From Brachycybe producta (Eukaryota; Arthropoda; Diplopoda; Playtdesmida; Andrognathidae): a DNA stretch of 64,000 nucleotides. Made by a program: the position numbers and the translations under genes. Positions 27,901 through 39,900 of the stretch are shown here, one piece after another (the stretch's first letter is position 1; each line of letters starts with the position of its first letter). The notes below the pieces were generated by a model, which saw only the letters and a program-made list of their open reading frames with translations, made no database searches and had not been told where the DNA came from. The DNA is taken from assembly GCA_036925085.1 (NCBI GenBank), contig JAUPFP010000007.1, forward strand, positions 7,650,228 to 7,714,227, in the 5' to 3' direction.

Positions 27901-30900
27901 CCACAAAAAGACCGTCTTTCCTAGGGATCTTTGGATATAGGGCGTGACGATGCCGAAGTCACTCTAGTCCTTTTCGTTGGATTGCTGGAGGCTCCAGGCA
28001 GAGGAACTCAGGCTGTGTCTGAGTGCCTTCTGCTGGATACTCCTCTATTTTAGGAGTACAGAAACCCAATATAGTTCAAATACACAACACTTACACAGGT
28101 TTATGTATAATAAGATATGTCTCTTTACTGGCTCTTTGTTACATTATTGTTAACACGCTTTACATCACTATTTCACTCTAAGTCAGGCTTAACTCTCCAG
28201 ACTGACTGTGTAGAACTCAACTTATCCGTTCTCACTCTAAACTCTGACTGTCCCTCACACTCAAGTCTCAAGCTCACTTGTCCGGTCTCCTGGGAGGGGC
28301 AACTGTCACCTCAGGGCTTAATGATTGACCAACTGGGCCAATCACTGCCCTGGGCCGGGGATACTAAATCATAAGGAGAAATATTTTTGGGACTTATTCC
28401 CAATTTTCTCACGGTCGGACTTGGTTCCACGAATTCTCTAGAATTCGGGCTACCCAAGTCTGAACATCTGTGCACCAAGGGGTGCCATACTGTCAAGACT
28501 AAATTCTGCCTTAAGTGTTTCACCTTCTGTTTCTACAGGGTGTCACAATGATGTATAACAGACAGAATAATTTTTAGATATATATTAGTCCATGAAAACA
28601 AACTTTGAATTTTTATTGTTGTATCTGAAGCAAAGTTTGTTCACTTCATGCATTCAAAAACTAACCGTTAAATAAAATATTTTGACACAACTGAAAGAAA
28701 ATAAATTATTAATTTATTAATGGAAAGTACATTCAATACCGTAAATTATGAACGTATTCCTCCAGTGGTCTTCTGTGTCAAAAGAAGACACGTGACACTT
28801 GTATTCGCCAGAAAGTTCAACAGTGGGTGATATGATCTTAAGAGCTCGGTGCATCGTGTAATTGTCTTCCGAAGCTCTGTAATCAAGATCCAGTCGATTG
28901 GCAAGGACTCCGAGGGCTTGTGGTGGTTGAGGTGGAATCCACTGATACACAGGTTGACTGCCACTATTTAGAAACCATTTCACCACTAGACTAAATGTAT
29001 CTCCACTTTCATACGTGTAATCACAGTCCAGAATTGCCGCAGGAACACTACCATTTTCCAGTGCTGCTGGCACTCGAAGCTGACGAATCTTCACACTACA
29101 TCCAAACTCTAAGAAAAAATTGAAAAAAAAATTAAATTATTGCATCAAGTTGAAAGTTTTTGATAAAAGTGGAAAAGTAATATAATGTAAAATTGTCGTT
29201 CGCAATAGTACATTTTGCAAAAACTTCATTTTCCCCAAATAAAACTAAAAAAGATATCAAAAAATGAAAAAAAAAAAGAATTCATTGTTTGAAGAAACAA
29301 AAAATTGCATTCATAGTTTACTAAAACAAGCTTCGAATTCCATTTGAAAAGGACCAAAAATGGGTTTCAATTTTATTGTCAAATAAAAGCTAAAATGTTC
29401 TCCCATTATTTTTTCTCTAGCAATGGCATCAGTTTGAGCAGAAAATAACACAGTATAAAGTAAACTCCTGTTTCAGTCGTCCAAATAATTTCAACCAAAC
29501 AGTAAGAAGTAGAGATAGCAGATGGAACCAAATTTAATGTATAAATACCATCTGAATCCTGAACCATAAAAAGAAATAAAATTGAAACCTATAAAAATAA
29601 CAATGTCAACAAACAAAACCATTAAAGGAGCAGAAACTAAAGAGAAAAGATAGCATCTTCCTTGTCTCTTGACTAACCACGAATAATTGTTGTTGGTGGA
29701 CATGAACCAAAATTAAAAAGTCTATAGAATACCATACAAGAATGTTGAATTGTTTCAAAAATTAGGAGATCCTTTCAGTGCAATTTCATTCGTTTTAATA
29801 TAGCAAAAAAAACATTCTACTCCATTACAAAGGCATTTTGAGAGTTTGTTGCAAAATAACTGAGCTTTAGATCTTTGCCCCATATGTTGTTTCTTTATAA
29901 ATGCATTCACAACAGCTTCATTGACCATACACATTACAACAGCTTCCATTGTGTTTCATATAATAATTGTGACAATGCAGAAATGGGAAGAAATATTTAT
30001 AATTCATATTGATTAAATGCTGTACATTATGAATAAATACTAAATAATTCCTTTCGCAGTACAAAAAAAATGCATTTCTGGTTTACTAAAACAAGACGAG
30101 ATGTAAAAATAGAATAGGTTTCAAAAAATGTTTTCTATACTATTAGCAACAATGTTCAAATGATTATTATTGTAATGCGATCTGTTTTATTTGACCATCA
30201 TGAAGGTATATGCATCATATGAACCTTGGACATCATGCCATCATTATCATATGAACTATTTTAATACAGTTAATGGTGCTGATATTATGCAGCCAGTTGA
30301 ACATTCACCATGCTCAAATAATGCAATAATTAAACATGACCTTAGTCTTGCTTTGATCTGACTCCACAACTGTAGATATAAATATGCAGACATCAATTTT
30401 ACTACTGGACAAATGAAGTGCACCAGTAAATAAAACTTAATATTGAATTTATGGTGCACTTAACTGCTTTCATGTGACTATATATATATAGTGACCATTT
30501 TTAAACACGACACATATATACACTGTCACTTTATTAAGTAACTTTTGTGACACCCTGTAGAAACAGAAGGTGAAACACTTAAGTCAAAAATTCAGTTTTG
30601 ACAGTAAGGCACCCCTTGGTGCACAGATGTTCGGACATGGGTGGCCCGAATTCTAGAGAATTCGTGGAACCAAGTCCGACCGTGAGAAAATTGGAAATAA
30701 GTTCCAAGAATATTTCTGATTATGATTTAATATCCCCGGCCCAGGGCAATGATTGGCCCAGTTGGTCAATCATTACGCCCTGAGGTGACAGTTGCCCCTC
30801 CCAGGAGACCGGACAAGTGAGCCTGAGACTTGAGTGTGAGGACAGTCAGAGCTTAGACACGGAGTAAGAAGGTCCGAATCTAGAGTTTAACCAGATAAGT

Positions 30901-36900: not shown

Positions 36901-39900
36901 GGGCCGTGCCAGGCAAGGCATAGTAAATGTCGCGCCCGGTGAACCCAACCCCCAGAGGTTCAACAACAATAGAGGCTGGTCCACAGCAGTCGACAACAGA
37001 GTCGACCCCGGCACCACCGACTCAGCAGAGGGAACAACGTCGTCAACGAGGACGAAGTTCCTCCCGCGTCGTCGGCAATGGAGCCAAAGGTACGAGAGGT
37101 GGGCCAGTCATGTCACACTTTTAACTGTAAAGCAAAAAAGCGTCACACTAATTCCAAATGTCACTAACATGAAGTAAAAATGACTAACAACCATACTTAA
37201 TTAACATTGGAATTATCCGGTAAAATAACGTAACATTTCGTCATTTCCACAGCCCTCAGAAACGATTCGAGTTGCCATGAAAACGTGTCCAACGGAAATA
37301 TTGATGCTCGTTACAGCTGTGTTTCTCGCTCAAGTACCACTTGAATCTATCTCAGGAGTTCAGAGGTAGAAAGTGAAGCTGATGCAACAATACAGGTGGT
37401 TGTATCCTGCAATCATCCGTCTTGATGTCTCTCAGGGCTAGTGGCGGCTGGAAGTTAAAGCTCCACGTTCCAAAAAAAATAAACTAAGTACAAACATCGA
37501 CTTGTGAAATATAAAAATATTTAATTTCTGAACTTAACGACACGCTAGATTGAGAGATGGTCTGACTGTCCTCTCATCTACGTTGGCTTCTCTTTTTATA
37601 CACAGTTTACATAAAAGATCATATATTACACATACAAAGGCGCCAGGTACATCCAAAACTCTTAGTCACACCAGGACCTTATAAAACAATACATAATAGT
37701 AAACAATACTCTATAAAAGTTAAATCATAGTGATTTACTTTTTGATACGCTTCACAGGTCCTCACTTGATCAAGGGTTCCACATTACCGATCTAAACAGG
37801 ATATATCCTGCTTGGATCACTGATATAGACCCCTTGACCAATATATTATCTCAGTGGGCAGGGAGGTGTCGTCCTGACGACCTCCCGGCCACCCCCAAGC
37901 ATAAGAAGAGGCACCTGTTTCAATTCAACCATTTAATTTTACAGGACGTGCATAAATTCGTTACAATAAGTTTGCAACACCATCTATTTGTGCATGATAT
38001 TAGCTATTGTCTCATTTCTAGCATTTATTATACATAATTAGAAGTAAACTAAATGATTACCTGTCAAATAATTTACAAATTAATTATTTTCAAACAACAC
38101 TCAGAGGTTATTAGTTAGAAAGGCATTATTAGCAACTATGTGCTAACTACATTCATTTTACAGCATGGCCTAAGTCAAAATTACCAACTGAATATTAAAA
38201 TCTAGTTTATTGTGACAGTATCTACATGTATTTAAGGATTTAGGCATTAATTCATAGTATGGCTACGTAACCCATTAAACTGATTTTGTCAACAAACTAC
38301 AGTTAACATGAGCTCAAAAATTACCTTACAAAAAATGAACTAAAGCTGTTTTGAATTTGATGGTCATCATCAGAATTTTCTAAGTTACATGATGATACGT
38401 GACTGACATACAAACACTACTTTGAAAAATATAAATCAAGCCCATAAAGGCGGGCAGCTGTAGATAAATCATTTGCATAAGAAGATGACAATAGGACCCC
38501 TAATGCCAACGTCTCTCGAATGTGTCTCTTCCGAGAGCCATTAAGTCACAAGAACTCACAAAATAACGACAACTGAGAATTATTGTAAAAATGGAGTACG
38601 AATGGAGTCACGGGGTTTCAAAAAAGAAAAGGAGAAAGTTTGAACATGTTGTTTTTGGAGTGTAGGTCTGCATAATAAAAGGTCGGAGTAGAAAACTCTA
38701 AGGAAAAGTGAAAACTTCCTCATGTAAACCAACCAAGCATACATGGAAGTAAACCACAAAACTGCAGCATCGCACATAGAGATATTATGCTAAGTAACTT
38801 CAAGCACAGAATATACACACTTCACAAAGTTACATTACAACATGATATCTTCTCCATCCAATGTGTACTCAACACTGTTTTGAATTAATTGTGGTCAGTA
38901 ATAAGTTGATAACTTAATTGTAAAAAGTAGACTCTTACTTAGATGGTAATGTATTTTTTTTTTCAACATAAGTTGTTGTAACATATAATACTATTATATA
39001 AAATTGTGACATATGCGTGAAATCTACGTGTAATGTTGATTGTATGAAATTCATGAATCATAATCTTTGTAGAAAAAAATTTAGATTTTAAAATTTTTAA
39101 TTGCATATTCAAAAAATATTGTTTGTTTTATAAGAAATAGTGACAGTATTTAACACCGTATACACTCTAATGAAATCACTTAATTTTATATGCAAATCAT
39201 CTAAAAAAAATATATAGTATGTTGTAAGCAAATAGATCGTAAGTTAACTAATTCTAAAATTGAAAAACAGATTGAGGATAATTCATATAGTGTGTAGTGT
39301 GTTATTTGTTAACATGTTTATGCGTTGATCTCTAGTTGAATAACTTAAACAAAAAGTTAATTTCTGTTCAACTTGTTGTTTCTCTAAAATGTCACACTAG
39401 TAAAGCACCAACAATGCTGCAAGACATTGCAATTACAGCATAAAGTGCGTTTATCTAAATTACTTAAAATCTGATAAAAAAATACAAAGCCTTTGTGTAA
39501 AATACATATAAAGCAACTTCAAATCATACCAAATGTAAAATTAAAAAGTAAAATATCGTGAAAAAAATTCATTTCTACAGTCATGAACGCCTTAAAGACA
39601 TCAAATAGGTAAATCAGCTACCAACCAGTTTCCTATAAAAGACATGCATTGATGAGAGCAGTTTTATTTGCCCTAATGTTACACTAAAAGTGATCCTTCA
39701 AAGGCGTAATCTTCAACTCTTAAAAGCAATGAATAAGAACAAAATACCACTTTTAACATTGTTCTTGTTGTGCAACTCAAAATCGATTAGAAAAAAATTA
39801 TCAAAAAAAAAATTTCACTTCCCACTGTTCTTGTAATTTTTTCTACTTTGTGTGATCACAAATGGCCAATTTTTTTTCTTGAATAGAAGCTATTACATAC

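Follow-up and report, generated by a model that had tools for sequence, protein, structure and literature searches.

A pol-less Ty3/Gypsy-type lineage, probably mobilised in trans, with a second protein apparently kept by selection and two exchanged C-terminal cassettes

The window, that is, the whole 64,000-nucleotide stretch analysed here, contains an LTR retroelement whose features are collected in Table 1. Its LTRs have TG...CA ends and differ by 0 substitutions and 0 indels over 896 bp, and its gag, the stop of which overlaps the start of ORF2, scores over the Pfam cut-offs for Retrotrans_gag and zf-CCHC and just under that for Ty3_capsid, while protease, reverse transcriptase (RT), RNase H and integrase are absent from the element by Pfam. 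The sequence-only reading, which had described a real and young element of just this make-up, is borne out in these respects. As it also says, the LTRs, the target duplication and the polypurine tract (about 36208-36221, adjoining the 3' LTR) are intact, but the element as a whole is not fully so, since the presumed stretch for priming reverse transcription next to the 5' LTR is missing in the window copy, while it is present in all seven other copies compared. In L014, one of the relatives, the 80 bases after the LTR, when compared with the LTR, show no exact complementarity of at least 8 bases. TG...CA LTRs and 4-bp target duplications, the latter read by eye, were found at all 8 two-LTR loci.

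Table 1. Features of the retroelement, in window coordinates.
Feature	Positions	Strand	Remarks
Target-site duplication, left copy	30542..30545	.	4 bp, CTTT
5' LTR	30546..31441	+	896 bp, same sequence as 3' LTR
gag	31251..32801	+	capsid-like domain and one CCHC zinc knuckle; start codon within 5' LTR
LTR-interior junction	31442..31470	+	presumed primer-binding stretch absent, gag still open
Pre-protease linker of pol	32801..33207	+	first part of ORF2; common to pol-bearing copies
Rest of ORF2	33208..33640	+	opens with acidic stretch homologous to post-integrase region
ORF3	33668..35158	+	membrane helix and C-terminal domain
Type A cassette	34333..35079	+	holds every fixed A/B difference found in ORF3
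3' untranslated region	35187..36221	+	common to pol-bearing copies; polypurine tract at end
3' LTR	36222..37117	+	896 bp
Target-site duplication, right copy	37118..37121	.	4 bp, CTTT

The two long ORFs of the earlier description, one of them with a membrane helix, are both open in the window copy (ORF2 at 32801-33640), and a hydropathy scan of ORF3 does show a single strong hydrophobic segment, around residues 46-79, with the helix at about 33803-33904. However, they are two only here: in the relatives L014 and L016 they form a single reading frame, which an in-frame stop splits in the window copy. Neither ORF matches Pfam or NCBIfam over the curated cut-offs, and a hidden catalytic pol domain, which the sequence-only reading had named as a result that would undo it, is rejected as far as the same two collections go, in which none was found. 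Wider searches gave no public protein for ORF3 at E <= 0.01 among 7995 candidates scored, no confirmed hit among the 17 and 18 pattern stretches that two alignments found in viral contigs, and, with two profiles against solved structures, best E-values of 0.071 and 1.3, taken as chance; an AlphaFold model of the C-terminal domain from a single sequence was unusable (mean pLDDT 33.5).

Where, then, does this second frame come from? Alignments within the same genome do not support the claim that these ORFs have no relation to pol. Namely, ORF2 up to about 33207, where the pol deletion junction lies, consists of the linker that precedes protease in pol, which is 86% identical to its counterpart in the pol-bearing copy C103 if repeat-unit gaps are included (a 36-bp tandem repeat occupies 32881-33042). 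The remaining ORF2, in part, is homologous to what pol-bearing relatives carry downstream of integrase, and so is ORF3 in its C-terminal part. In particular, the post-integrase C-terminal domain of C103 aligns to the pol-less ORF (with L016 as query) at 28% identity over 170 amino acids, with an E-value of 4e-15. Judging by these alignments, most of the second frame past the linker is a diverged form of the post-integrase region of pol-bearing relatives.

When the gag copies of the 295-Mb assembly are ranked by score, the top 40 comprise 32 that lack pol and have the junction of the window element, 6 with RT in the vicinity and 2 with neither, and this deletion junction is spanned by 38 of 40 scored places (63 candidates). 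The sequence-only reading had allowed that all other copies might carry pol and this one be a single deletion; the recurrence of the junction in many copies rules out a lone deletion copy. That said, the search for pol-bearing relatives that it proposed did find some, most clearly C103 (L010 and L011 together), whose LTR, gag and 3' UTR are 94-98% identical to those of the window element and in which the same LTRs and gag are present and gag is followed by protease, RT, RNase H and integrase, and then by an ORF that contains a membrane segment and the C-terminal domain. A separate family, 68% identical in RT, shows the same layout. In this family one open frame covers protease, integrase and the C-terminal domain, and at another locus (L009) the frame is likewise open between protease and that domain; therefore, the protein may be made within a polyprotein. 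The LTR pairs of six pol-less copies differ by 0-5 substitutions each (and in one case also by 3 indels), and that of C103, the sole pol-bearing copy with an LTR pair compared, by 11 substitutions and 3 indels. By this measure C103 is older than the pol-less copies, which counts against the proposal made below.

Two C-terminal cassettes are found among 31 pol-less copies: 16 carry type A, 14 carry type B and one, L054, is an A/B crossover. The two types are about 65% identical inside sharp boundaries, whereas the flanking sequence is about 97% identical, and the fixed differences between them that were found in ORF3, 221 in 11 copies, all lie within 34333-35079. What is more, in L013 a pol-less upstream part is joined to the pol-bearing type's sequence just beyond its ORF. 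Such mosaics show that recombination took place among pol-less elements with different cassettes, and also with the pol-bearing type. L013 has no C-terminal domain, yet its LTRs are near-identical, so that an element may not in every case require the domain in cis, which weighs against the proposal made below.

The sequence-only reading had suggested a dN/dS check, and its outcome points to purifying selection on the ORFs, most clearly in the C-terminal domain. Namely, among copies sharing the junction, the changes in this domain are 31 synonymous and 20 nonsynonymous for type A, and 36 and 25, respectively, for type B, where 75-76% of the sites in these counts are nonsynonymous. The within-type pair ratios vary widely (0.03-0.63 for the C-terminal domain), and in one of the tests the shared changes of type A show no significant bias. 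As for the state of the frame, ORF3 is open throughout in 4 of the 11 pol-less copies with full ORF3 (the window, L014, L016 and L046) and interrupted in the other 7, and the window's own combined frame holds a stop; both observations, like the wide pair ratios and the shared type A changes, weigh against the proposal that follows.

We consider it very probable that these copies represent a non-autonomous Ty3/Gypsy-type lineage that is mobilised in trans, keeps its second protein by selection and exchanges cassettes, a proposal supported by the shared junction, the common LTR, gag and 3' UTR, the bias in the C-terminal domain and the recombination. The lineage would have been founded when protease, RT, RNase H and integrase were lost, leaving gag and one long second frame, in which the pre-protease linker was fused to the post-integrase region with its membrane helix and C-terminal domain. 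RNA driven by the LTR would then give the element's own Gag and the second protein, and would be packaged together with the Pol of a partner, whose enzymes would carry out reverse transcription and integration, while template switching between co-packaged RNAs could exchange the cassettes. The second protein itself may be kept through preferential action on its encoding RNA or particle, for example in membrane-linked assembly or transport.

Would the same observations be expected if the pol-less copies were mere deletion derivatives in a recent burst, with ORF3 passive and its constraint inherited or re-imported from unseen pol-bearing elements of type A or B? Recombination did occur, pol-bearing relatives exist and cassette donors must have existed, and the interrupted ORF3 copies, together with the recent insertion of L013 without the domain, fit such a passive role. 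However, 10 pol-bearing copies were looked at, and none of the 6 with a readable C-terminal domain has cassette A or B: in five it is of a third type, with 28% identity, and in the remaining one a fragment that matches this third type at 52%. With a pol-bearing donor of A or B not found, the selection may have worked on a donor that escaped detection, but where junction and cassette type are shared, the differences between copies still show the bias against amino-acid change, and we regard this explanation as somewhat unlikely.

Some Gypsy elements carry a post-integrase ORF, for example errantiviruses with env, and ORF3 resembles this arrangement in being an additional membrane-associated ORF past integrase. 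One could argue, then, that ORF3 occupies the place of env and encodes an envelope-like protein, with the pol-less element as a satellite of an infectious Gypsy and A and B as alternative surface domains, the more so as it is the C-terminal part that is swapped. Against this, neither ORF3 nor its homologues match any viral glycoprotein or known envelope family in Pfam, the conserved domain is preceded by the helix, and the open frames of the 68% family and L009 suggest that the protein may belong to a polyprotein, so that we think this reading improbable. Finally, a new retroelement class with foreign genes in place of pol, suggested by the lack of curated matches for both ORFs and of public ones for ORF3, is rejected as extremely improbable, because both align in part to pol-flanking regions in the same genome.

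The claim of a new class of element is not supported, in view of the same alignments and of pol-bearing elements that share its LTRs and gag. The window element has the TG...CA LTRs of Ty3/Gypsy elements (Metaviridae) and, at 4 bp, a target duplication within their 4-6 bp range, as well as a gag of Gypsy type, with a capsid domain and a CCHC knuckle; since the order PR-RT-RH-IN is absent from it but present in C103, we file it as a non-autonomous derivative and not as a complete member. By sequence features, it is a lineage of this type, probably mobilised in trans, rather than a new class. TR-GAG elements of plants, defined by LTRs, a primer-binding site, a polypurine tract and gag without pol, and presumed to be mobilised in trans, are similar in their LTRs, polypurine tract and pol-less gag. 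However, the presumed primer-binding stretch, present in 7 others, is missing from the window copy, which has an additional long ORF from the post-integrase region with two swappable cassettes, pol-bearing relatives share its LTR and gag, and the host is apparently an animal. LARD elements have a long non-coding interior, whereas the interior here codes for gag and the second frame. In the pairs BARE1/BARE2, RIRE2/Dasheng and MusD/ETn, a defective element likewise shares LTRs and cis signals with a competent partner, but the defective members have lost gag or all coding capacity, while here gag and the post-integrase protein are kept, with signs of constraint. Going by its title, CM-gag of the insect Culex pipiens is a repeated element with gag and no pol, too, having only the gag gene (reference 18 in PMC3286476), in contrast to the second frame found here.

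Our fullest reading of the lineage, which we offer tentatively as a possibility, is that a pol-less lineage outnumbering its pol-bearing relatives keeps a selected post-integrase protein in two interchangeable versions, exchanged at sharp boundaries, and that the domain is a recognition or compatibility module. If this is true, the module would match the protein to an RNA, a particle, a partner or a host factor, and non-autonomous elements would possess their own cassette system under selection. Non-autonomous LTR elements are generally understood to keep just cis signals or gag. The pol-less lineage studied here keeps part of a second protein, with a measurable bias against amino-acid change, a post-integrase protein of the same kind is found in two related Gypsy families, and its C-terminal part exists as two discrete alternative cassettes. 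This allows one to test the function of a post-integrase protein, and the reason why a retroelement parasite should need one of its own.

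The window element belongs to a pol-less lineage of many copies, which has sequences in common with pol-bearing relatives. Its extent, as proposed in the sequence-only reading, was confirmed by the LTRs and the flanking duplication. Namely, the two LTRs (896 bp each, TG...CA) are identical end to end, which indicates a recent insertion, and the 4-bp duplication CTTT stands on either side of the element; 4-bp duplications, read by eye, are also present at the other seven two-LTR loci examined. The gag frame starts within the 5' LTR, matches Retrotrans_gag and CCHC above the Pfam cut-offs and Ty3_capsid just under it, and ends with a stop that overlaps the start codon of ORF2. 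ORF2 and ORF3 gave no match above a curated cut-off in Pfam or NCBIfam. A presumed primer-binding stretch adjoining the 5' LTR, present in seven other copies, is absent from the window copy, with gag still open. As the exact 30-base string across this altered LTR-interior junction occurs once in the assembly, there is no sign of spread of this variant. In the pre-protease linker lies a 36-bp tandem repeat, at which several other copies differ by one 36-nt unit. Outside the element, the start of a short ORF ~160 bp downstream resembles, by eye, a signal peptide, and an ORF with immunoglobulin-domain matches just under curated cut-offs is perhaps a host exon; this ORF and the size of the genome are consistent with an animal host.

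Coordinates of the element, its parts and neighbouring features in the window
Feature	Position	Strand
LTR element	30546-37117	
gag	31251-32801	
ORF2	32801-33640	
36-bp tandem repeat	32881-33042	
Site of pol deletion (junction)	~33207	
ORF3	33668-35158	
Fixed differences between cassettes A and B	34333-35079	
Short downstream ORF	from 37277	+
ORF with immunoglobulin-domain matches	59768-60268	-

The assembly (295.3 Mb, 442 contigs) was searched with the LTR, as had been proposed, for relatives with or without pol, and among the best 40 of 929 candidates, which were scored, both kinds were found. In particular, five of the seven LTR pairs examined (L012-L016) have the pol-less layout, and in C103 (L010 and L011), whose LTR starts lie ~11 kb apart, protease, RT, RNase H and integrase are present. 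Another copy, L009 (C48:813200-822600; LTRs one substitution apart), has lost RT to integrase core in-frame, keeps the protease and has a single open frame of 1623 codons; it is a second, separate loss, distinct from the window-type deletion. Identity of the window element to C103 is 97.4-97.7% in the LTR, 98.0% in gag, 94.2% in the 3' UTR and, with repeat-unit gaps counted, 85.9% in the linker; two other pol-bearing copies, C159 and C17:4177981, are lower in the LTR (93.0% and 90.2%), and their 3' UTRs are 97.6% and about 89% identical to that of the window element. The ends of C103 and those of the pol-less copy L016 have closely similar flanks and the same 4-bp duplication, two copies that reflect either target preference or a shared repeat.

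Further searches, in which gag, junction and RT places were paired by coordinates and all counts are lower bounds, give the size of the lineage. The junction query (33100-33660) was covered end to end, within two bases, at 38 of 40 scored places (best 40 of 63 candidates). With gag (best 40 of 70), 32 places were pol-less with the window-type junction, six had RT within 6 kb and two, one of them L009, had neither. The RT search (best 40 of 501) gave 13 rows with an identity of at least 86% (three short), five in the range 72-79% and 22 with 68%. These last 22, the majority of them with near-equal scores, look like a separate family.

What, then, are ORF2 and ORF3? Judging from the alignments, ORF2 up to the junction is the pre-protease linker of pol. 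The rest of the second frame, with L016 as query, matches the post-integrase region of C103 in two places, an acidic stretch (38% identity, 53 aa, E 1e-5) and the C-terminal domain (28% identity, 170 aa, E 4e-15); between the two, both copies have a hydrophobic helix, though the helices did not align with each other. ORF2 and ORF3 form one frame in L014 and L016 (809 and 810 codons between stops), and a single in-frame stop separates them in the window copy. In pol-bearing C159 the integrase frame is open through the helix, with one stop further on, and C103 switches to another frame once integrase ends. The 68% family has an open frame from protease through integrase (L035), continuing into a 1050-codon stretch (L040) where the C-terminal domain is again present (24% identity, E 2e-8); the domain is thus common to two related Gypsy families of this genome. 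L035 and L040 (C15:3424625 region; RT 68%), with their long open pol frame, represent that distinct Gypsy family. The domain had no match in Pfam or among solved structures, nor did window ORF3 as query match any of 7995 scored public candidates.

The C-terminal stretch of ORF3 exists in two alternative cassettes, A (as in the window copy) and B, which are ~64-65% identical over long matches to both. A set of 11 pol-less copies in which ORF3 is complete divides into five of type A and six of type B. Between the two types, the mean identity per 75-nt window is 95-99% from 33668 to ~34270, then 91% for one window and 57-78% beyond 34343, and all 221 fixed differences lie within the cassette, with none in the preceding 665 or following 76 bases. 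Twenty further copies comprise 11 A-like (two older, 92-93%), eight B-like (one 94%) and one mixed, giving 16 A, 14 B and one crossover among all 31 bearing the cassette; with L013, the comparison covers 32 of the 38 full-junction copies. Recombinants between cassette types do occur: cassette A runs to 34790 in L054, save at two single sites, with B taking over at 34798. L013 (C36; LTRs one substitution apart), which has no C-terminal cassette, appears to be recombinant, with a pol-bearing element or a relative of one as the other parent: its pol-less sequence extends to near the left boundary of the cassette and gives way, within a few tens of bases, to what lies just past the ORF end in the pol-bearing type. 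ORF3 may be dispensable in cis for some insertions. Five of the ten RT copies examined (C103, C159, C17:4177981, C35, C1:12035582) carry a third version of the domain; C12, with a 1.5-kb flank only, has a fragment 52% identical to the C103 type, C62 has only the upstream part of the region, and three gave no domain match in the 2.1-2.3 kb fetched.

The dN/dS comparison suggested for ORF2 and ORF3, made pairwise against the window copy, gave 0.12-0.33 for ORF3 and 0.36-0.90 for the rest of ORF2 (five copies each), and 0.44-1.12 for the linker and 0.19-0.49 for gag (seven copies each). Within a type, single pairs give 0.03-0.63 for the C-terminal domain and, in a few cases, more than 1 for the upstream half of ORF3. 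Changes were also counted within types, in 14 copies each of A and B; L054 (the crossover), L013 and two older copies, L070 and L071, were set aside. Roughly three in four sites are nonsynonymous. In the domain, type A has 23 synonymous and 13 nonsynonymous singletons (shared, 8 and 7) and type B has 20 and 18 singletons and 16 and 7 shared changes, besides one that creates a stop. There is a bias against amino-acid change in the domain (p 4e-7 to 0.013), under tests that assume no mutation bias and no relatedness among copies. In a smaller set the domain had 16 and 16 in type A (p 0.0013; shared changes not significantly biased) and 27 and 13 in type B (p 1e-8); the corresponding counts for the upstream half of ORF3 were 26 and 32 in A (p 4e-4), 27 and 55 in B (p 0.045). 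ORF3 is interrupted in seven of its 11 full copies. The constraint may instead have been imported by recombination from pol-bearing A or B elements; neither cassette was seen in any of the ten RT copies, only six of which gave domain sequence to judge.

The pol-less copies are probably mobilised in trans by the Pol of a partner, with co-packaging and template switching, and the second protein may have a cis-preferring role.
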